Assembly: GCA_031287975.1 (NCBI GenBank)
Contig: JAITSF010000047.1
Span: 1-12,851 of the forward strand
Direction of reading: 5' to 3'
Origin: Candidatus Nomurabacteria bacterium
GTDB lineage: Bacteria > Patescibacteriota > Saccharimonadia > Saccharimonadales > Saccharimonadaceae
Length of the DNA: 12,851 nt
Shown piece after piece: positions 1,504 to 12,375 of the stretch. Position 1 is the stretch's first letter, and each line of letters begins with the position of its first letter. The notes under the pieces were generated by a model that was not told where the DNA came from, did no database searches, and was given only the letters and a program-made list of their open reading frames with translations. A program made the translations under genes and the position numbers.

Positions 1504-1632
1504 TGTTCTATTATAAATGCGTATGGTAGGGTAGTGTTTTGCTGCGCGATCGTCCATCAAGTTGGGCATCGCGAAAGCAAGTGGACGAAATCCATACGCT
1601 ATTGGAATAGAACACCTCGCGGTGCCCTTTTT
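1504..1632 (+). ncRNA. Structured 5' leader with pseudoknot, candidate riboswitch/attenuator
   Basis: Nested helices: P1 1504-1512 with 1606-1614 (9 bp, TGTTCTATT/AATAGAACA); P2 1519-1526 with 1592-1599 (8 bp, GCGTATGG/CCATACGC); P3 1539-1543 with 1576-1580 continuing as 1545-1550 with 1568-1573 (CGCGAT/ATCGCG). The P3 loop carries CGTCCA (1551-1556), which is the exact complement of TGGACG (1582-1587) just after P3, an H-type pseudoknot. Downstream, CACC-TCGC-GGTG (1613-1624) followed by TTTTT (1628-1632) is a short terminator-like hairpin that shares two bases with the 3' arm of P1, so the two could compete. The element is the very 5' end of the maturase mRNA. I could not match it to SAM, preQ1, ZTP, fluoride, cobalamin, c-di-GMP, T-box or HDV-type consensus sequences from memory. 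The structure is seen; the regulatory role is inferred. Confidence 0.6.
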
Positions 1633-1702: not shown

Positions 1703-3010
1703 ATGTTATATCGTAAGTTAAGTGCGCCACTTCATGTTCAGATTGAAATCACATCGTTATGCAATAACCAATGTCAGCATTGTTATAATCAAATATTTCG
1801 TAAGGACGTGCAGCAAAATACGATACGGAGCTGGGGGATTGGGCGAATTATGTCAGAATTGGTAAAGGATAAGGTATCTTCTGTCGTCATAACTGGAGGA
1901 GAGCCGTTACTGTTCCCAAATCTTGTTTTAAATATTGCCGAGCAATGTGTGAGCAACGACATTAAGTATTCAATCAATTCAAACTTAACAGTTTGTGAGC
2001 CAAACGTTTTTGAGGAGCTATTGGATTTTGGGAAAGTGCGAGTTTTGACTTCTATAGCTTCGTTTTCGCCAGATGTCCATGACGAAATGATGGGGCGTGA
2101 AAACGCATTTAACGAAACAATCTTCAATGTGAGGACGTTGGCTAAGCTCGGAGTCGATATTGTTGCGAACATGGTATTAACAAACGTAAACGTGAACCAA
2201 GTCTACGAAACAGGAAGGTTCATCAGTTCATTGGGGTTGAAAACCTTTGCTGTGACGAAAGCATCATGTCCTGTTGGTATTGGATTACCTGACAACTTGG
2301 ACATCTCTAAAGACGACTTTCTGAGGTCTGTAAAGGGCATGAAGATGGTTAGGGACGATTTTGGTATAAAAGTTGGTACATTGAGCTGCTATCCTCATTG
2401 CGCATTGGGAGATTTGGAAGAATACAGTTTTGTGGCAAATCGTCTGTGTGGTGCTGGTAAAACAGACTGCGTGATATCTTCGCAGGGAGACGTGAGAGCT
2501 TGTGTGCAATCCGACAAAGTTTACGGAAATATTTTCCGAGAATCTTTATCAGATATCTATGCAAAGATGGACGAGTGGCGTGATGGCACGTTGTTGCCAA
2601 CCATATGCAAGGTTTGTGAATATTTTGCAGCGTGTGGTGGCGGATGTCGTTATAACGCACAAGCATTTAACGGCGTCTCTGGAATGGATGTTTTTGCAAC
2701 CAAACCGGAAGACGTAGTCGTGCCACTTAAACAGAGGAGTGTTCGTATCTACGACAGACAGCAAAACATTTTTACACCAAGCGGTATCAAATCTCGCCCT
2801 GAAGATTTTGGGAGAATATTTTCAAATTTCGACGGGAAAATTATTATGGTTGATGGCAATGGAGGCAGGTTGGTTGATAATATTATAGGCCGAACTGTCA
2901 AAATTGCATCAATATACGAGGACAACAAGGAATGTAGTGAGGAAGATATTAATTTTCTTCTCGACAGGCTCTTGTTGTCTGAGTTCTCAATATTGGTCGA
3001 GAGCAGCTGA
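1703..3010 (+). CDS. Radical SAM/SPASM peptide maturase
   Basis: Probably installs a radical-derived crosslink or other modification on the small peptide encoded 13 bp downstream. The 435-aa protein starts with AAGGAAGGTG as ribosome-binding site. Residues 20-27 carry the radical SAM 4Fe-4S motif CX3CX2C (C20, C24, C27 in CNNQCQHCYN), and GGEP at 65-68 is the SAM-binding motif. A complete SPASM domain for auxiliary clusters follows: C249-X12-G-X4-C267, then C302-X2-C305-X5-C311-X3-C315, with C411 a possible last ligand. There is no N-terminal peptide-recognition domain; instead about 105 residues follow SPASM, and 385-432 (GNGGRLVDNI... SEEDINFLLDRLLLSEFSIL) resemble the winged-helix pattern of PqqD-type RiPP recognition elements (inference, weak to moderate). 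Family assignment is very secure. The precise subfamily (ranthipeptide, sactipeptide, other) cannot be told from the sequence alone; anaerobic-type heme or heparinase maturases are less likely given the neighbouring peptide. Confidence 0.93.
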   Translation: MLYRKLSAPLHVQIEITSLCNNQCQHCYNQIFRKDVQQNTIRSWGIGRIMSELVKDKVSSVVITGGEPLLFPNLVLNIAEQCVSNDIKYSINSNLTVCEPNVFEELLDFGKVRVLTSIASFSPDVHDEMMGRENAFNETIFNVRTLAKLGVDIVANMVLTNVNVNQVYETGRFISSLGLKTFAVTKASCPVGIGLPDNLDISKDDFLRSVKGMKMVRDDFGIKVGTLSCYPHCALGDLEEYSFVANRLCGAGKTDCVISSQGDVRACVQSDKVYGNIFRESLSDIYAKMDEWRDGTLLPTICKVCEYFAACGGGCRYNAQAFNGVSGMDVFATKPEDVVVPLKQRSVRIYDRQQNIFTPSGIKSRPEDFGRIFSNFDGKIIMVDGNGGRLVDNIIGRTVKIASIYEDNKECSEEDINFLLDRLLLSEFSILVESS

Positions 3011-3023
3011 AGGGAGGTGTATT

Positions 3024-3119
3024 ATGGTCCTCGGTATGTTGGAGAGCTCCGATCAGGAGCAGGTCGTGATGACGACTGAGTGCGAGAGCGGTACTGGTTG
3101 CGACAGCTACATCGAGTAG
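3024..3119 (+). CDS. Candidate RiPP precursor peptide, 31 aa
   Basis: A short ORF 13 bp after the maturase stop, with a near-perfect Shine-Dalgarno sequence (GGGAGGTG) at normal distance from ATG 3024. The N-terminal part (MVLGMLESSDQEQVVMTTE) is acidic and leader-like; the C-terminal part CESGTGCDSYIE has two cysteines (C20, C26) spaced by five residues, with Glu, Asp, Ser, Thr and Tyr around them, the type of residues radical SAM enzymes crosslink. No double-Gly cleavage site is present. A strong hairpin 19 bp after the stop ends the unit. A longer in-frame reading from 2904 exists but overlaps the maturase and lacks a ribosome-binding site. I do not recognise the peptide family; precursor status is inferred from position, size, translation signal and composition. 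Confidence 0.75.
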   Translation: MVLGMLESSDQEQVVMTTECESGTGCDSYIE

Positions 3120-3138: not shown

Positions 3139-3171
3139 CCCCCGTATTTGTGTTCTTTACAAATACGGGGG
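3139..3171 (+). terminator. Strong hairpin closing the maturase-peptide operon
   Basis: A perfect 13-bp inverted repeat (CCCCCGTATTTGT, 3139-3151, with 3159-3171) around a 7-nt loop. No U-tract follows on either strand, so it may act as an mRNA 3' end stabiliser or a U-independent terminator rather than a textbook one. Its loop and 3' arm hold the -35 box of the next promoter. Confidence 0.55.
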
Positions 3172-3184
3172 CAACTCGTATAAT
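3156..3184 (+). promoter_or_regulatory. Promoter of the metallopeptidase gene, leaderless
   Basis: TTTACA (3156-3161), a 17-bp spacer and a perfect TATAAT (3179-3184). The GTG start at 3191 lies six bases after the -10, where +1 is expected, and there is no ribosome-binding site. The -35 is embedded in the preceding operon's hairpin, so the two units share DNA but not, apparently, a transcript. Confidence 0.75.
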
Positions 3185-4061: not shown

Positions 4062-5141
4062 TTACTGTTCAGAGACAGCTTTAACAATGTAGCGGTTTTT
4101 CATGTCAGGAGTGCAAGAGATTAGGGTTAGTTCTTTTCTATCGCTATCGCTGTCAAGGACTGATAAATCATCAGGTGGGTGAACAGAGTAGCTTTCGACT
4201 TTGTATTCAACGTTTTCACCGCTAAATGTTGTAATTATTACAACATCACCGATTTGTAGGTGGTCGATATTAGTGAAGAATAAATTGCCACCATTAGATG
4301 ATTTGTGGCCGAGCAGGACGACATTGCCGGTCTCACCCAGCGACGGGCCGGTATATTTCGAGATGGAAATATTGAGCGAGGAATCGTTTTCGTAATTGAT
4401 GATTGGGTATTTTAGGTCAATAGCCGGTATTTCGATCGCGCCGATAACTTCGCGGTTGTTGACGGTAGTGCTGATGCCGGCGGAGATTGACGATTGGAAT
4501 TGATCAGCAGTCTCTGTCAGTTTGTCGTTAAGGAAGCTGATACGGCTGCTGTCCCACAACGAATAGGCTACAAGGGCGGTTATGCTGACGCCAAGTAGAA
4601 TGACTGAGGCGACCAGGCGTTTTAAGCGGGTGTCGGCTGGCCAGCGGCGGAAGAAGTGAATTGCCAGCACCAGCATAATAATCGCTAAAATGGGTAAAAT
4701 AATTGTTCGGATATAACCGTAAGGACGGGTTAACTCTTGAATATAATATGCTGTCCAGTTGGTATGAAAGACTTCGCGGCCGATGTAGCTGTCGCGGGTA
4801 ACTTTTTGGCCGTCGGCGATTGGGTTGTTGTCGCCTTTGGTGATAAAACTGTCGCCGAGGACGTGGATGACGCGGTGGAAGGCTAGTTGTTTACCTATCG
4901 AGTCGGCGCGAAAAGCGATAACATCGCCGACTGCGACATCGTCGAATTTGCCTTGTTCGATAACCACTACAGAGTGCGTCATGTATTCAGACTCCATTGA
5001 GCCGGTGGCAATGATGAACGGTTTGTATCCAAAGACGTAGATGTTTTCGGAGCTTTTGCCGAGAACGACTACGAACACAACGGCAGCTATAAATATAAAT
5101 GTCGCTAGAATCAAGAGGGCATTAGAGAGAATTTTTTTCAT
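4062..5141 (-). CDS. Fusion of SipW-type signal peptidase I and sortase
   Basis: 359 aa with two enzymes in one membrane protein. Residues 1-28 are a signal anchor. Then comes a SipW/archaeal-type signal peptidase: ATGSMES places catalytic S48, LAFHRVIHV gives H89 (His instead of the Lys of ordinary bacterial enzymes), and KGDNNP contains D104. Two membrane segments (about 144-164 and 176-194) lead to a C-terminal extracellular sortase of about 130 residues: IGAIEIPAIDLKYPI is the entry strand, H279 in LLGHKS, C343 in LISCTP and R350 in NRYIVKA are the catalytic triad. Both active sites are complete. It overlaps the upstream sortase-substrate gene by 4 bp (ATGA), indicating translational coupling, with AGAGGA upstream. 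It would process the SipW-type signal of the TasA-like protein and anchor the VPNTG protein. The fusion architecture is seen; substrate pairing is inferred from the operon. Confidence 0.93.
   Translation of the reverse strand: MKKILSNALLILATFIFIAAVVFVVVLGKSSENIYVFGYKPFIIATGSMESEYMTHSVVVIEQGKFDDVAVGDVIAFRADSIGKQLAFHRVIHVLGDSFITKGDNNPIADGQKVTRDSYIGREVFHTNWTAYYIQELTRPYGYIRTIILPILAIIMLVLAIHFFRRWPADTRLKRLVASVILLGVSITALVAYSLWDSSRISFLNDKLTETADQFQSSISAGISTTVNNREVIGAIEIPAIDLKYPIINYENDSSLNISISKYTGPSLGETGNVVLLGHKSSNGGNLFFTNIDHLQIGDVVIITTFSGENVEYKVESYSVHPPDDLSVLDSDSDRKELTLISCTPDMKNRYIVKAVSEQ
4228..4244. repeat. Dyad GTTGT-N7-ACAAC inside the sortase gene
   Basis: A perfect copy of the 17-bp dyad (spacer aattatt) within the coding sequence of the sortase domain, in the strand VVIITT. 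As it is coding it may be coincidental, but the spacing is identical to the intergenic copies. Confidence 0.6.
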
Positions 5142-5842
5142 GGAGATCTATCCTCTTTGGAGGTTGGTTTTGTTTTGTCGGCGCGGCGGCGGAGTAGGAA
5201 CAGGATTAGCAAAAGTACAGTTGATAGAGAAAAAAAGGCGATCAGACCATAGAGGAAATAATATAAAGCGCGACTTTCGCCAGTGTTGGGCACTAGCGGC
5301 AGGTGTGGTACGGGCGCGCCGCTGATATTTTCTGGTGCGGTTATACTGCCGGGCGAGGCGTTTTGGCAACTGTTGGTGTCGCCATGGAAAGTTACGTAAA
5401 CCAGGAACGATTTACCTTGATGTTCGTTGCCGAAATTTTTGTCCATGCTGACATTGAGGACGAATAAATCGTCGGTTTCGGGGCCGACACAGATAAAGTT
5501 GCGGCCGCTGGTGTTGTTCGGACCGATATTGACTAGTTGAGAGCCGTTATAACTGAGGGCTAGTTGCAGCTCGTTGAGGGTCAAGTTGCTAGTAACGTCC
5601 TCTTCGACATCGTGGACACCGACCGTAACCGATTGGGACGATTGGTTATTGACGCGAATGTTGTACGAGGTGTTAAACCCGGGACCGATGTTTAGCTCGT
5701 CGAAAACCAAGCTTTGGTTGTGGGTAAGGCTAGCGTCAGTGATAGTTATGGTGTAATCGGTGGCGTCAGCGGGTTGGGCGAACAAAGACAAAACTACGGC
5801 AAGTGTTGTCCCTAAAACGCTGTGCCGTAGTTTCTTAATCAT
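5138..5842 (-). CDS. Secreted sortase substrate with VPNTG motif
   Basis: 234 aa. Residues 1-27 form a classical signal peptide (MIKKLRHSVLG, hydrophobic core, then QPADA with cleavage likely after A27). The exported part is rich in Thr, Asn and beta-type sequence, with two Cys (ICVGP and NSCQN) that could pair. The C-terminus is a cell-wall sorting signal: LVPNTG at 183-188, a hydrophobic stretch of about 25 residues, then RRRADK. VPNTG is a variant of LPXTG. It lies 18 bp after the TasA-like gene and overlaps the start of the SipW-sortase fusion by 4 bp, so that enzyme is its probable anchor. No obvious Shine-Dalgarno precedes ATG 5842, so translation may rely on coupling. Function beyond surface attachment is unknown; a fibre accessory or anchor protein would fit. 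Confidence 0.85.
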   Translation of the reverse strand: MIKKLRHSVLGTTLAVVLSLFAQPADATDYTITITDASLTHNQSLVFDELNIGPGFNTSYNIRVNNQSSQSVTVGVHDVEEDVTSNLTLNELQLALSYNGSQLVNIGPNNTSGRNFICVGPETDDLFVLNVSMDKNFGNEHQGKSFLVYVTFHGDTNSCQNASPGSITAPENISGAPVPHLPLVPNTGESRALYYFLYGLIAFFSLSTVLLLILFLLRRRADKTKPTSKEDRSP

Positions 5843-5860
5843 AGCTAGAGTGATGATGAT

Positions 5861-6622
5861 TTAGTTAGTATCGTTAATGCCAACGGTGCTTTCGGCGGTC
5901 GACCAGCGAGTATCGGTCAAGGTTACGCTCGGGTTATTGCGATACTGCAGACCCTCAGCGCGGGCTGAGATAGCCAGAGTTTTGCCTTGAGCGGCGTTCG
6001 GTGCATAGCCAGCGAAGTACAGTGTGAAACCAACAGTAATCGGGCCAGCTGTACCGTCAGTTTCGGCGCCAGTGCCGGTGCCTTGAATGGTCTGGACTGT
6101 GCCGACACCGGTCGTGCCGGTGGACGCAAAGGCCGCGCAACCAGTGCCGCCGTTGCCGCCCGCCACGTAGCCAGAGATAGCACAGAGAGCGGTGTCTTTA
6201 GCGGTGCTGGCCGCCGCCGCGTTTTCGGCCGCCAGTAGCGAAGCTTGCGTTACATTGCCACTGTAAGCGTAAATGTATGGTTTCAAGGCCGCGTCAATAG
6301 TCGCGCCCGAGAACGCCGCCCGTAGCCAAGCGCTTTTGTTGCCGACATTAGTGATATCGCCGTAAATATAAACCGCGTCGCCTGGGTTTAGGTTAGCAAT
6401 CGAAGTGGTGATTGCGGTGCCGCCGGACGGTTGGCCGTTAACTTGATATTTGAATGAACCGCGTAGGTCCAAAGTGCCCGAAGTAGCGCTGCCTGATCCG
6501 GTGATGACATCGCTAAAGAATGCGAAAATCACACCAGTGGTAATCGCCACCGCGGCGATAATCAGAGCCAGAGCCGCTATAAGTTTGCGATTCTTGTGGT
6601 TGTCTTGTTGTTGTTGCGTCAT
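5861..6622 (-). CDS. TasA/camelysin-like SipW-dependent surface protein
   Basis: 253 aa. After a hydrophilic MTQQQQDNHKNRK comes a hydrophobic segment (14-36) ending in FAFFSD, then GSGSATSGTLDL: this is the SipW-type signal of TasA, CalY/camelysin and related proteins (hydrophobic core, Tyr/Phe-Phe-Ser/Thr-Asp, then a small-residue stretch and G-T-L-D-L). The rest is a low-charge, Ala/Gly/Thr-rich beta-type domain with two Cys (ALCAISGY and TGCAAF), probably a disulfide. In known systems such proteins polymerise into matrix fibres or act as surface proteases; here fibre subunit is the better guess. GGAGG sits 8-9 bases before ATG 6622. First gene of a three-gene operon with the sortase substrate and the SipW-sortase fusion, whose peptidase half should be its processing enzyme. 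Family by motif and context; confidence good. Confidence 0.82.
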   Translation of the reverse strand: MTQQQQDNHKNRKLIAALALIIAAVAITTGVIFAFFSDVITGSGSATSGTLDLRGSFKYQVNGQPSGGTAITTSIANLNPGDAVYIYGDITNVGNKSAWLRAAFSGATIDAALKPYIYAYSGNVTQASLLAAENAAAASTAKDTALCAISGYVAGGNGGTGCAAFASTGTTGVGTVQTIQGTGTGAETDGTAGPITVGFTLYFAGYAPNAAQGKTLAISARAEGLQYRNNPSVTLTDTRWSTAESTVGINDTN

Positions 6623-6662
6623 AGGTTATTTCCTCCTTTTACCCATTATTATTATCATTAGC

Positions 6663-6694
6663 ATTATACTAATCGATTTTGTCAGCGATGTCAA
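6663..6694 (-). promoter_or_regulatory. Promoter of the surface-fibre operon
   Basis: On the minus strand a perfect TTGACA (6689-6694) and a perfect TATAAT (6663-6668), with a long 20-bp spacer; TAGTAT at 17 bp is an alternative -10. A leader of about 35 nt with a good ribosome-binding site follows. Confidence 0.5.
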
Positions 6695-6756
6695 CAGGCG
6701 GTATTATCAGATATGGAGTTTTCCACATTATTTGCTAGAATCAAGTATTATCGCTG

Positions 6757-6786
6757 TTGCAGTTATATTGATGATTGTGGTAGAAT
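6757..6786 (+). promoter_or_regulatory. Possible promoter of the giant adhesin gene
   Basis: TTGCAG (6757-6762), an 18-bp spacer and TAGAAT (6781-6786). TATAAA at 6801-6806 is a second -10 candidate. The region before ATG 6827 (CACCACAACAACCC) has no Shine-Dalgarno, and an in-frame stop at 6803-6805 fixes 6827 as the first possible start. Weak evidence; the 204-bp gap is a divergent control region with the TasA-like operon. Confidence 0.3.
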
Positions 6787-6826
6787 TACCATAGGGTAAC
6801 TATAAATAAAAACACCACAACAACCC

Positions 6827-9800
6827 ATGAAAAAACAACAATCTAAAATAGACGGTAGTATTTTCGTCTCGCGTAGTGAGCGAGCGAGTTTTGCTGTCAA
6901 TAGAAAAAATGACGAGATTCCCAGAAAATCTGGCTGGACGTGGCAGAAGTTGTCTTTGGCGGTTCCTGTGGCGGTTATGGGTGTTGGCATTATTTTGTTC
7001 GCTGTCATACAGGCTTTCTTCTCCGATAAAATCGAGACTAATTTTAACGCGGTTTCGGCGACAGACACGATTGTTATCGGCACGTTTGATTGCACCAATG
7101 CGGCGCAAGAGTGGACGGCGCCGTATGCTGGTCAGTTTCAGTTAGAGGTTTGGGGCGCGGCTGGCGGCGATAATTCGGCGACTAACACCGGCGGCAAGGG
7201 CGGCTACGCGACCGGTACAATCCAGTTAAGGGCTGGCGAAAAAATTTGGGTAAATGTTGGTTGTCGAGGTCAAACCACTACTGGTAGTTATGCGCCGGGC
7301 GGTTGGAACGGCGGCGGGCGGGGCGCTAAGTTTAGTAGTTTACCGACAGGCGGCGGTGGTGGCGCGACTGATATTCGGATTGCCAGCGAAAGCACCGGTC
7401 AGCCGAGTTTGTTGACGCGCGTTCTTGTGGCCGGTGGCGGTGGTGGTTCGGGCTCAAACAACGGAACGGCAACGCTTATAAACAAAGGTGGCGCTGGCGG
7501 CGGGTTGTTTGGAATAGACGGTATAACAAGCAGCCTACATATTGGTCTTGGCGGCACCCAAACTGCTGGTGGCACGACCGGTTCGGACAGCCGGCGCGAC
7601 GCGGTTAATGGGCTGGGCACTTTTGGGCAAGGCGGTAGCATGTTGGCCGGCACAACTAATGGCCTTACGACTGGCGGCGGTGGTGGTGGCGGCTGGTATG
7701 GCGGCGGCGCGGGCGTTTGGGAAGGCGGCGGTGGCGGTTCGGGCTATGCTTGGACATCGGCTATGGCGGGTAATTATCCGGCTGGTGGTTTAGGCTCGTC
7801 GAGCTATGATACGGCGCATTGGTTGGAGGACACCCTGCTCATTAACGGTAATTCATCAATGCCCGACCCCGACGGCAATACTATAACCGGTCGCAGTGGT
7901 GACGGTTTTGCGCAGATTACTCAGATAGTACTTACCCCGCCGACTATTACACTAAACGGCGATGACCCGCTGACGATTTTGCGCGGCGTGCCTTTTGACG
8001 ATCCGGGCGCGATAGCCAGCGATGTGGTTGACGGCGACTTGACGGGCGACATAGTGGTTGACGACTCGGCGGTTGATACTACGACGGTCGGGCAGTATGA
8101 AGTTTCTTATGAAGTTACCAACAGCGCTAATTTAACAGCGTCAATTACTCGCACTGTCAAGGTGATAGCGGCTTTGGAATACGGCTGCACCAAAACTGCC
8201 AAATCGTGGACAGCGCCAATTGACGGACAGTACAAATTGGACGTTTGGGGCGCGGACGGCGGCGCAGTCAGCAACTCGATTTACAACGGACACGGCGGCT
8301 ACGCCAGCGGTCTAGTTAAACTCAAGGCCGGCGAAGAAATATTTGTTTATGTCGGTTGCAAAGGTGAAGAGTCATCCCAAAGTGGCTATGTCAATGCCGG
8401 CGGTTGGAACGGCGGCGGCGCGGCTAAAAACAGCACCACTAACGTCCGCGGCGGTGGCGGTGGCGCGACCGATGTGCGCGTGGTGGCAGATAGTCTGTAC
8501 AATCGGATTATTGTGGCCGGCGGCGGTGGCGGGAACTCCGCTCATGCCACTAACCAAAAGGCTGGCGATGGCGGTGGCGACACCGGCGCGGACGGAAGTT
8601 TTGGCAAGGGCGGCAGCCAGAGTGCCGGCGGTGCTGGGCAGGTAACCGGCGGCGCGGCGGCTGACTTTGGCGTTGGCTCTGAAAACACGGCATCAACTGT
8701 TGGCGGCGGCGGTGGCGGTTGGTATGGCGGCGGCAACGGCAACGGCGCGGGCGGTGGTTCGGGCTATGTGCTGACCAGTTCATCATACAAACCCAGTGGC
8801 TATTTCAGCCAATCCGCTAACTATTACTTAGCCAGCCCAGTCAATGTCCAGTACAGCCAAACCGGATTTGTAACCAATCCGGCTTCGGCCGGCGATGGCT
8901 ATGCGAAGATTTCTTTTAGCCAATTGCCCACCGAGCCGACAATCTCGCTGGTTGGTGCTAATCCGCTAGAAATTGATCATGGCAGCGCGTTTGTTGACCC
9001 AGGCGCAACGGCATACGACGCCATCGACGGCAACATTAGCAGTAGTGTAGTGGTGTCTTTGGGCGGTTTAGATGTTAATATATCCGGAAATTACACTGTA
9101 ACTTATAGTATAACCAACAGTTTTGGACTGTCAGCGTCGGTTTCTCGGCAAGTTACTGTAAAAATGCAAGAAACATCGCAAGGCTTTGCCTGCACGAACT
9201 CTACCCAAGTTTTTGTCGCTCCGGCCACTGGAGTATATACGCTAGAAACTTGGGGCGCGCAAGGTGGTGCCGGCACCCACGCTGCTGGCGGTAAAGGTGG
9301 CTACTCAAACGGTAAGATTTCCTTAACTCAAGGAACGACGCTTTATGTTTACGTCGGTTGTCAGGGTGTTTCATCGACTGCCTCTGCGCCGGCTGGTGGC
9401 TGGAACGGCGGCGGCGCTGGCCAAGGCAAGGCTGGTAGTTATGTACACGGCGGTGGCGGTGGCGGTTCGGACATTCGTATTGGTTCAGATACGCTCTACG
9501 CTCGAGCGATAGTGGCCGGAGGCGGCGGTGGTGCCGGCGGCGCTAGCCACAACGGCTTTTCAACGGTCGGCGGTTATGGCGGTGGCTTGGTTGGTATGAC
9601 AGGCGATGCACAATCTGGTCGCACCGGCGGCGGTGGTGGCACGCAAACTGCCGGTGGTGTGGCCGGCTGCTATTCTAGCGGTACTGGTTGCGGTTTGGCT
9701 GGAGCGTTTGGACAAGGCGGCGACTCAGCTGGTGATTATAGCAATGCTTTCTTGGGCGGTGGCGGTGGCGGCGGCTGGTATGGCGGTGGCGGTGGCGGCG

Positions 9801-10894
9801 CTGGCGGACCGTCGGGTGGCGGTGGCTCGGGCTATGTTTTAACTTCGACATCTGATAAACCGCCTGGCTATTTATTAGGCAGCCAATATTATATGACTGA
9901 TACTGAGATAAACGGCGGCAATGAGTCCATACCCGCAGTCGGCGGCGGCGGCGAAGTCGGCCACGCCGGCGATGGCTATGCCCGCATTTCATATAGTGTG
10001 CCGTCAATCTTTGACTTTAACTACACCGGTGCAGCTCAGCCGTGGATGGCACCGTCGGACGGCGATTATAAGCTAGAAGTTTGGGGTGCGCAAGGCGGCG
10101 ACGGCCAAACCGGCACTGCAAATGGTGATTATCTTGGCGGCCGAGGCGGTTACACAGTTGGTATAGTGGCTCTTAGTAGTGGCGACGCGCTCTATGTGCG
10201 AGTTGGTGGCCAGGGTCGTAAGGCCGGCCAAACTGGCGATGGATTAGTGTCGAATTCATTTAATGGTGGCGGCTTAAGTGATAGTCAACGTATTTATAAC
10301 GGCTGGGGACGTTCTGGTGAAGGCGGTGGTGCTAGTGATGTTCGTATTGGTACTGATAGTCTATACGCTCGTGTAATTGTTGGTGCTGGCGGCGGCGGAG
10401 CGGGTATTTACGACCTTGGCGGAACTTATAAAGCTTCCGGCGGCGCTGGCGGCGGTCTAACTGGTCTGGACGGCGAAAATAACGGCGTTGCTATCGGTGG
10501 TGGTGCTACCCAAACAGCTGGTGGCACAAGCGGCGGCGGTTTTACGACCGCGTCTGGATTTGGTGTCGGCGCTTCGATGGTGCTAAATGGTGCGTCGGTA
10601 ACTTCTGGCGCCGGTGGCGGCGGTGGCTGGTACGGTGGCGGTGTATCAGCACAAGGAAGTACGGTTCATAACTCTGGTGGCGGCGGCGGTTCGAGTTGGC
10701 TTTACACGGCTGCTAATTATAGTACTTGGGCGAACGCTGTCGGCTCATCGGCTAGCGGCCAATGGCTGCTTACATCGCAGTACTATCTAGTTGATGCCAA
10801 CACTATCGTCGGAACTGCCGCCATGCCCGATCCAGCCGGTGGCACGGCAACCGGCCGCAGTGGTAATGGTTATGTTAGAATAACAAAGTTGTAA
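6827..10894 (+). CDS. Giant glycine-rich, Ig-like repeat surface adhesin
   Basis: 1355 aa. A basic N-terminus is followed by a membrane segment (about 41-63) ending in AFFSD and a stretch like the SipW-type signal of the divergent TasA-like protein (FAFFSD), so export and cleavage by the SipW-sortase fusion is likely. Four glycine-rich domains (about 84-366, 450-698, 784-1058, 1061-1355) each open with W/F-x-AP-x2-G-x-Y/F-x-LEVWGA and contain GGWNGGG, GGGGATD(I/V)R, VAGGGGG, TQTAGG, GGGWYGGG and SGY blocks, like the glycine-rich domains of ALK-type receptors and bacterial adhesins. Two DUF5011/Ig-like domains (about 370-446, 704-780; DPGA-x2-D-x-DG core) separate domains 1-2 and 2-3; none lies between 3 and 4. 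The first three glycine-rich domains each have a Cys pair (C89/C146, C454/C511, C789/C845). No LPXTG motif; it ends NGYVRITKL. Attachment, perhaps to host cells or fibres, is inferred. Confidence 0.9.
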   Translation: MKKQQSKIDGSIFVSRSERASFAVNRKNDEIPRKSGWTWQKLSLAVPVAVMGVGIILFAVIQAFFSDKIETNFNAVSATDTIVIGTFDCTNAAQEWTAPYAGQFQLEVWGAAGGDNSATNTGGKGGYATGTIQLRAGEKIWVNVGCRGQTTTGSYAPGGWNGGGRGAKFSSLPTGGGGGATDIRIASESTGQPSLLTRVLVAGGGGGSGSNNGTATLINKGGAGGGLFGIDGITSSLHIGLGGTQTAGGTTGSDSRRDAVNGLGTFGQGGSMLAGTTNGLTTGGGGGGGWYGGGAGVWEGGGGGSGYAWTSAMAGNYPAGGLGSSSYDTAHWLEDTLLINGNSSMPDPDGNTITGRSGDGFAQITQIVLTPPTITLNGDDPLTILRGVPFDDPGAIASDVVDGDLTGDIVVDDSAVDTTTVGQYEVSYEVTNSANLTASITRTVKVIAALEYGCTKTAKSWTAPIDGQYKLDVWGADGGAVSNSIYNGHGGYASGLVKLKAGEEIFVYVGCKGEESSQSGYVNAGGWNGGGAAKNSTTNVRGGGGGATDVRVVADSLYNRIIVAGGGGGNSAHATNQKAGDGGGDTGADGSFGKGGSQSAGGAGQVTGGAAADFGVGSENTASTVGGGGGGWYGGGNGNGAGGGSGYVLTSSSYKPSGYFSQSANYYLASPVNVQYSQTGFVTNPASAGDGYAKISFSQLPTEPTISLVGANPLEIDHGSAFVDPGATAYDAIDGNISSSVVVSLGGLDVNISGNYTVTYSITNSFGLSASVSRQVTVKMQETSQGFACTNSTQVFVAPATGVYTLETWGAQGGAGTHAAGGKGGYSNGKISLTQGTTLYVYVGCQGVSSTASAPAGGWNGGGAGQGKAGSYVHGGGGGGSDIRIGSDTLYARAIVAGGGGGAGGASHNGFSTVGGYGGGLVGMTGDAQSGRTGGGGGTQTAGGVAGCYSSGTGCGLAGAFGQGGDSAGDYSNAFLGGGGGGGWYGGGGGGAGGPSGGGGSGYVLTSTSDKPPGYLLGSQYYMTDTEINGGNESIPAVGGGGEVGHAGDGYARISYSVPSIFDFNYTGAAQPWMAPSDGDYKLEVWGAQGGDGQTGTANGDYLGGRGGYTVGIVALSSGDALYVRVGGQGRKAGQTGDGLVSNSFNGGGLSDSQRIYNGWGRSGEGGGASDVRIGTDSLYARVIVGAGGGGAGIYDLGGTYKASGGAGGGLTGLDGENNGVAIGGGATQTAGGTSGGGFTTASGFGVGASMVLNGASVTSGAGGGGGWYGGGVSAQGSTVHNSGGGGGSSWLYTAANYSTWANAVGSSASGQWLLTSQYYLVDANTIVGTAAMPDPAGGTATGRSGNGYVRITKL
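7076..10894 (+). repeat. Four tandem glycine-rich repeat units in the adhesin gene
   Basis: Units of about 750-890 bp starting near 7076, 8174, 9176 and 10007, diverged at DNA level but with the same order of protein blocks; units 1-2 and 2-3 are separated by DUF5011-coding spacers (about 7934-8166 and 8936-9166). Runs of GGC/GGT codons (for example 7675-7693, 9757-9803) are internally repetitive and prone to slippage or recombination. Confidence 0.8.
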
Positions 10895-11995: not shown

Positions 11996-12003
11996 GAATG
12001 AAA

Positions 12004-12375
12004 ATGAGTGAGCTCCCACGAACAAGAGAGGAAGTTCTAGCCAAAGAGATAAATGGAGTTGATGGCTATACCACATCGTCCGGAGAGAAGCGACATGAAA
12101 AATTTGATGAGCTGTCGAATTGGGGTAAGAGTTTAGCAAGAGAAGTCGATGAACGTGCTGCTTACGGTGCCGAGAGAGCCGAAAAACAGGCCGAGTTTGC
12201 TAGGAATAAGGTCGAACGGCTTCAAGAGGCAAAACGAAATGGTGTAACTACCGAGACCTTGTTCGTTAGCGGGCAAACAGTAGATATTGATCGTGTTATC
12301 GAGATGTGGCAAAGAAACGCAAACGAAAGGCAACAAACGGCGAATGGCCTAAAGACTGGCAATTGGACTGCGTGA
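12004..12375 (+). CDS. Unknown hydrophilic helical protein, 123 aa
   Basis: I do not recognise a family. The protein is strongly charged (many Glu, Lys, Arg), has no Cys, no signal peptide and no membrane segment; residues about 28-80 (KRHEKFDELSNWGKSLAREV onward to the KVERLQEAKR stretch) look like a continuous amphipathic helix or coiled coil, followed by a short T/V segment and a second helix (DIDRVIEMWQRNANERQQTA). Start: ATG 11998 is in frame two codons earlier, but AAAGGA (11992-11997) would abut it, while ATG 12004 has a normal 6-base spacing, so I prefer 12004. It has its own promoter and a repeat-bearing leader. The real-gene call rests on length, ribosome-binding site, promoter and sensible composition. 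Confidence 0.7.
   Translation: MSELPRTREEVLAKEINGVDGYTTSSGEKRHEKFDELSNWGKSLAREVDERAAYGAERAEKQAEFARNKVERLQEAKRNGVTTETLFVSGQTVDIDRVIEMWQRNANERQQTANGLKTGNWTA

Follow-up and report, generated by a model that had tools for sequence, protein, structure and literature searches.

A putative radical SAM peptide operon with an HExxH protein gene in a Candidatus Nomurabacteria draft genome

Organization of the locus

The window, by which we mean the whole stretch of 12,851 nucleotides analysed here, is contig 12 of a draft genome of 506 kb in 78 contigs, with a completeness estimate of 70%. Its plus strand carries, in this order, a radical SAM (rSAM) gene, a small cysteine-containing open reading frame that begins 13 nt (3011–3023) behind the rSAM stop codon, a hairpin, and a gene for a protein with an HExxH motif (Table 1). 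A preliminary description of this DNA had reported a two-cysteine ORF behind a complete radical SAM/SPASM gene, and we could confirm the coordinates, the gap, the cysteines C20 and C26, the ribosome-binding site and the hairpin. It had also called the locus minimal, a view that must be given up, as the third gene, that of the HExxH protein, was overlooked and belongs to the locus.

Table 1. Positions of the features of the locus and the basis of each assignment.
Feature	Position	Strand	Basis
Region of strong folding before the rSAM gene	1504..1614	+	z −5.4; belonging uncertain
Radical SAM/SPASM peptide maturase, 435 aa	1703..3010	+	ORF, Pfam domains, aligned cysteines
Shine-Dalgarno (SD) sequence AGGGAGGTG of the precursor gene	3011..3019	+	anti-SD duplex, −12.9 kcal/mol
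Precursor peptide gene, 31 codons	3024..3119	+	ORF, SD, CDS control, leader comparison
Intergenic 14-bp hairpin behind the precursor gene	3139..3171	+	folding, shuffle control
TATAAT, inferred −10 element of leaderless type	3179..3184	+	6 nt before HExxH start
Putative cytoplasmic zinc metalloprotease (HExxH), 239 aa	3191..3910	+	H151, E152, H155, E181 invariant

The enzyme has the radical SAM motif CX3CX2C (C20/C24/C27), and its Radical_SAM (E = 1.7e-20) and SPASM (E = 3.4e-6) domains both score above the Pfam cut-offs. Cysteines 233, 249, 267, 302, 305, 311 and 315 are invariant in two alignments, A2 (five rows including the window, one of them partial) and A5 (four rows). A C-terminal extension of about 100 residues had no match in Pfam and PDB searches. 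No recognised leader-binding RRE domain was found in the enzyme, and with a radical SAM motif beginning at residue 20 there is no room for an N-terminal one. From its sequence, the C-terminal extension may have a PqqD-like RRE fold, but Pfam, the PDB and hhalign gave this no support; profile comparison of the extension with N-terminal RRE-like stretches returned a probability of 0.2%, and single-sequence AlphaFold2 models, with mean pLDDT of 34 and 42, were too poor for fold comparison. Membership of the viperins was rejected: the enzyme matches the PADLOC pVip model (E = 1.1e-15), but it carries a SPASM domain and is accompanied by a peptide.

The small ORF translates to MVLGMLESSDQEQVVMTTECESGTGCDSYIE, which can putatively be divided, at a predicted boundary, into a leader, MVLGMLESSDQEQVVMTTE, and a core, CESGTGCDSYIE. 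Its ribosome-binding site had been described as near-ideal, and its SD pairing is indeed the strongest of the eight starts tested, those of the seven longer ORFs (150 aa or more) and of the precursor ORF itself; the next strongest reaches −11.8 kcal/mol and that of the rSAM gene −9.4 kcal/mol. GC content at third codon positions (GC3) is 0.81, compared with 0.42 in the rSAM gene and 0.31 in the other neighbour, although high GC3 is no general mark of such precursors, since those of five relatives range from 0.37 to 0.74 (0.74, 0.73, 0.48, 0.44 and 0.37). The earlier statement that no known precursor is matched holds for NCBIfam, Pfam and PHROGs, the best NCBIfam score being 15.4 bits against a cut-off of 65.

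The hairpin behind the precursor gene has a folding energy of −23.8 kcal/mol, which 1 of 200 shuffled sequences equalled (z −3.3), and is followed by no T-run. Upstream of the rSAM gene, the stretch at 1504–1614 folds at −48.2 kcal/mol, with none of 200 shuffles as good; a search of Rfam gave no match, either at the gathering score or at E ≤ 1, and the stretch is possibly a leader RNA or a separate RNA.

In the product of the third gene, H151, E152 and H155 of the HExxH motif and the downstream glutamate E181 are invariant in the five rows of alignment A1, the window included. The protein has no significant Pfam, NCBIfam, PHROG or PADLOC family, and sequence searches gave neither a peptidase family nor a solved relative; judged by its motif, which together with the downstream glutamate is the pattern of MA-clan metalloproteases, it is a putative zinc metalloprotease. 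A phage origin was rejected, as neither the peptide nor the HExxH protein has a PHROG and no viral relative of the enzyme was confirmed.

Farther downstream, 4062–10894 is occupied by a surface cluster. It includes a 359-aa protein that unites a signal peptidase domain with a sortase domain, a protein resembling camelysin, and a glycine-rich protein of 1355 aa, in which two Ig-like domains and four glycine-rich stretches of the ALK/LTK type are present. A 125-aa ORF at 11998–12375 had no significant family match.

Relatives of the enzyme and their linked peptides

Within the same bacterial family, 30 of 295 genomes contain a match to the enzyme at E ≤ 0.001 (comparison genomes were about 0.5–1.7 Mb in size). 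The best in-family relative, in genome G161, is 42% identical over residues 1–401, and nothing more similar was present in the genomes searched. A profile built from four rows (window, G161, G548 and G599) matched 27 of 216 genomes of the phylum at E ≤ 1e-20. We take as the window enzyme type all members scoring at least 350 bits, a line of our own choosing, namely G548 (770), the window (717), G599 (694), G670 (371) and G652 (352), together with G161 from other searches.

All six full-length members of this type have an SD-led, cysteine-rich ORF just downstream. The five peptides besides that of the window are MELLSIMEGTASGSVSLCDSIDCHDGDDGPGGCFDSGDCNEPD in G161, MEILSIMENNSSVSLSSASCDGPICDCGDDCYDCIDCDE in G548 (with a GTG start), MISQDFGFVSILVSDSSQVASQTSCEEDCYNDFCDVGKCDCVQCDCD in G599, MAVGILRLQTTRVCEDNCDGEDIDGVPCVDVEDPPCYEMCQDSDDGPND in G670 and MALGLVALDVQASCDCDELYGPGQDPPCDTMCNDTNNGPTDDQ in G652. 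The proposal that the locus encodes a ribosomally synthesized and post-translationally modified peptide (RiPP) thus gains support, since a small cysteine ORF lies behind every one of the five full-length relatives. One of two lesser members also has a downstream cysteine peptide: it is present in G654 (135 bits, C-terminal half only), while G673 (284 bits, a shorter ORF of 365 aa) has none directly downstream. The side branches G221 and G235 have a downstream cysteine ORF as well, the G235 enzyme being cut by a contig end. No peptide directly follows the enzymes of G147 (26% identical) or of the Firmicutes locus L031 (23% identical), the sole locus to come from a scan of genome contigs. About 1.9 kb behind the L031 rSAM gene lies an ORF (7934–8254) that contains several CWPWRGGGG repeats and might be a precursor.

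In the enzyme tree, the six type members group with G673 and G221 at a support of 94/93, which is below the 95/80 mark. By our own reading, 11 of 27 rSAM matches examined have a plausible adjacent precursor, the window and two near-copies in G234 included, and 16 have none. The preliminary description had looked to homologous maturases for a small ORF with conserved C20 and C26; the ORF is there, but the cysteine spacing is not conserved. What the relatives do share is a tail rich in cysteine and acidic residues; subsets of them also have the start of the leader in common. At the level of sequence, a linked short precursor is conserved with the maturase.

A control over 11 regions, the window and 10 that were fetched, set this linkage against the background. 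Behind each CDS of at least 150 aa we looked for an SD-led ORF of 20–80 codons with at least two cysteines in its second half, starting between −20 and +150 nt from the CDS stop. Such an ORF was found behind 6 of 133 CDSs and behind none of the remaining 127. Five of the six CDSs are rSAM genes (window, G161, G221, G235 and G274), and the sixth lies just before the second rSAM gene of G161; its small ORF is probably the precursor of that second enzyme. rSAM genes are over-represented in this control because the regions were chosen for holding rSAM or HExxH genes.

The leaders were compared over the seven residues after the first methionine, against 18,528 pairs of N-termini from other ORFs. 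The window leader starts MVLGML and resembles MALGLV and MAVGIL; likeness was found for the pairs window–G652 (p = 0.01), window–G670 (p = 0.01), G652–G670 (p = 0.001) and G161–G548 (p = 0.0002), while 11 of the 15 pairs tested show none. With 15 pairs tested, the two p values of the window are only suggestive.

HExxH genes within and outside such loci

A search for the HExxH protein within the family gave 18 matches in 14 of 295 genomes. In six of the 18, the gene lies right behind an rSAM gene, a cysteine peptide and a hairpin: five of these linked loci are the window, G161, G274, G139 and G205, the sixth is another copy from the genome of the window, and their intact enzymes fall in three separate branches, so that at least three enzyme types are involved. 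The gap between precursor and HExxH gene folds as a hairpin in all six (a shuffle control was run for the window only). A TATAAT-like box ends 6–7 nt before the HExxH start codon in five of them, and 9 nt before it in G161. The second copy in the window's genome is on contig C13 (L083 1–786, minus strand), where an intact HExxH gene stands behind decayed rSAM pieces in two frames, with a startless, cysteine-rich, core-like stretch also before it.

No rSAM gene with a peptide was seen in the flanks (up to 1.5 kb) of the other 12 genes. One of these, in G290, follows an rSAM gene of a different kind, with no peptide. The linked copies do not form one clade in the HExxH tree, where the number of label changes (5) is close to the shuffled mean (5.3). 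Because 12 of 18 copies are unlinked and the linked ones are unclustered, the HExxH protein may do something else.

Across the phylum, 25 matches came from 22 of 192 genomes, and the window's genome accounts for two. Among the 23 outside it, six have a cysteine-rich small ORF upstream: G537, G595, G548, G599, G654 (where the rSAM gene is truncated) and G652. The window-type copy in G652 is located elsewhere in that genome, with no adjacent rSAM gene and no SD sequence before its likely ATG. A rough binomial estimate for 6 of 19 linked copies gives 2e-8 at an adjacency of 1%, a value that we assumed. In two further loci, an HExxH gene lies directly behind an rSAM gene with no called peptide (L113, G651), and the first 20 or so residues of an HExxH ORF resemble the start of the rSAM class, as if by internal deletion (L125, G616).

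A second family of HExxH proteins occurs in the same setting. In G670 and G652, whose enzyme loci were found through the enzyme and not through HExxH, the gene after the peptide encodes an HExxH protein of this other family. G548 and G599 have both kinds, the other-family gene sitting between the peptide and the window-type HExxH gene; since both genomes were found via the HExxH search, the linkage seen there cannot be counted as independent. The G670 (37.8 bits) and G548 (33.5 bits) proteins score above the 32.4 bits required for Peptidase_MA_2, with G599 (23.5) and G652 (19.9) below it, and those of G548 and G670 are 31% identical.

A model for the pathway and its alternatives

Known peptide maturases offer several partial likenesses. 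Among 31 solved relatives of the enzyme profile, the top three ranks are all taken by peptide maturases, SuiB (5v1q, 5e-24), SkfB (6efn, 7.5e-23) and PqqE (6c8v, 1.6e-22), with CteB (5wgg) at 9.9e-10; enzymes of other chemistry, among them cytosylglucuronate decarboxylase, sulfatase maturase and MoaA, rank lower. Among the best 25 of 87 NCBIfam families none reaches its cut-off, the highest score being that of GeoRSP (92.7 bits against 400). SuiB, which makes streptide, acts on a Lys-Trp core and has an N-terminal RRE, and the window has neither. SkfB links the locus to the sactipeptide maturases, where a short precursor is likewise found, but the window enzyme has no N-terminal RRE, no C39 partner was found in the six genomes searched, and the curated models score far below their cut-offs (AlbA 65.2/850, SkfB 64.7/300, StsB 67.7/625 bits). 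The ranthipeptide systems SCIFF/CteB and PapB also place a SPASM rSAM enzyme beside a small cysteine- and acid-rich peptide, whereas the window core has two cysteines; the PapB model matches at E = 2.8e-15, but with 56.4 bits against 340, and SCIFF (TIGR03974, cut-off 425) ranks outside the best 25 of the 87 families, the 25th scoring 47.8 bits. The mycofactocin enzyme MftC gives E = 1.7e-23, but 83.3 bits against 265, and the window peptide lacks the C-terminal motif of MftA. The ACGX system (TIGR04340, cut-off 400) is present in the same bacterial family, in G234 (571.6 bits) and G227 (421.2 bits), with its precursor upstream of the enzyme; in the window the precursor is downstream and the enzyme scores 65.3 bits. 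Membership in the mycofactocin, PQQ, SCIFF and ACGX systems was thus rejected on curated cut-offs.

With enzyme, cysteine peptide and putative zinc protease found together in relatives, the locus looks like a real peptide-making system. Very probably it is a radical-SAM RiPP operon of a member of the Patescibacteria, probably of the Saccharimonadia; the enzyme would cross-link the cysteine peptide and the HExxH protein would most likely trim the leader. The enzyme would bind the hydrophobic N-terminal leader and generate a 5′-deoxyadenosyl radical, and one or both of C20 and C26 would be coupled to carbons of core residues, yielding thioether bridges like those of sactipeptides or ranthipeptides, each with a mass change of −2 Da, with the auxiliary Fe-S clusters handling thiolate and electron. 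We infer the joining of cysteine to carbon from the kinship of the enzyme with peptide maturases and from the cysteine-rich tails; whether the link is of the sacti- or the ranthipeptide type cannot be told from the sequence. The hairpin may set the HExxH gene apart from a precursor that is produced in large amounts, and the HExxH protein, expressed from a putative promoter of its own, would remove the leader inside the cell. Counting against a RiPP are the tiny core, the unconserved cysteine spacing, the enzymes of G673, G147 and L031 that no peptide directly follows, and the failure to recognise an RRE domain. No exporter is among the window ORFs scanned.

The role of the protease is where another explanation comes closest. 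Rather than a leader peptidase, the HExxH protein might be a self-protection (immunity) protease that destroys mature or stray peptide, and orphan immunity genes are retained after the rest of a system is lost. The promoter-like box beyond the hairpin in linked loci would fit, as would the intact copy on contig C13, whose neighbours are decayed rSAM pieces and a core-like stretch with no start codon. The large number of unlinked copies, dispersed over the tree, would fit too. The unlinked copies may, however, have another job, and the replacement of the protease by one of another family in G670 and G652 suits processing at least equally well. The family of the protease changes, yet a gene for one persists; this favours leader removal, and we regard immunity as the unlikelier role, though a serious competitor.

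Considerably less probable is a peptide-derived cofactor, or a redox or metal carrier, that stays inside the cell as PQQ and mycofactocin do. PqqE and the mycofactocin maturase are among the relatives of the enzyme, and a C39 exporter peptidase was found in none of six genomes (two of them less than 90% complete). Against this, the cores differ strongly among relatives, unlike cofactor precursors, no mycofactocin or PQQ partner is among the window ORFs scanned, and the enzyme is below the curated cut-off for PQQ (57 bits against 381) as for mycofactocin. It is very improbable that the enzyme acts on a small molecule and that the ORF is an unrelated small cysteine protein, such as a metal binder: AhbD/NirJ-type (haem-type maturase) models score as high as peptide maturases and the cysteine- and acid-rich tails could bind metal, but the peptide is linked to very divergent rSAM types and absent from the other control CDSs, and the solved relatives that rank first to third all act on peptides. 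A chance reading frame, conceivable for a mere 31 codons, was rejected on the CDS control and is hardly compatible with the strongest SD pairing of the eight starts, the high GC3 and the leader likeness to two relatives.

Beyond the window, we tentatively consider, at somewhat less than even chances, a phylum-wide system of ultrasmall, presumably host-attached bacteria in which several independent rSAM types share one plan of maturase, cysteine- and acid-rich precursor, hairpin and leaderless HExxH gene, with a protease that is replaceable and outlives the rest and with peptides acting between episymbiont and host or rivals. Bacteria with genomes of about 0.5–1.2 Mb have discarded most biosynthesis, and some of those studied here nevertheless retain radical enzymes devoted to peptide modification. 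Should the peptides really be produced, they would be candidate molecules for the dealings of ultrasmall bacteria with hosts and rivals, and with its short cysteine precursors and an unclassified protease the system is compact enough for tests in E. coli.

Other peptide loci were noted in the same material. Small cysteine ORFs lie upstream of rSAM genes in L053 and L070 (both G234), L056 (G227) and L059 (G491); the G234 and G227 loci are of the ACGX type, and in G234 the gene pair occurs twice on one contig, with a peptide of four SACG repeats. Further rSAM enzymes with small cysteine peptides are encoded in L098 (G273), L097 (G283), L100 (G294) and L072 (G161); for the enzymes of G273, G294 and G161, no equivalog model within the best 25 reached its cut-off, and one peptide of this set ends in ...AMTCKNPSNCH.
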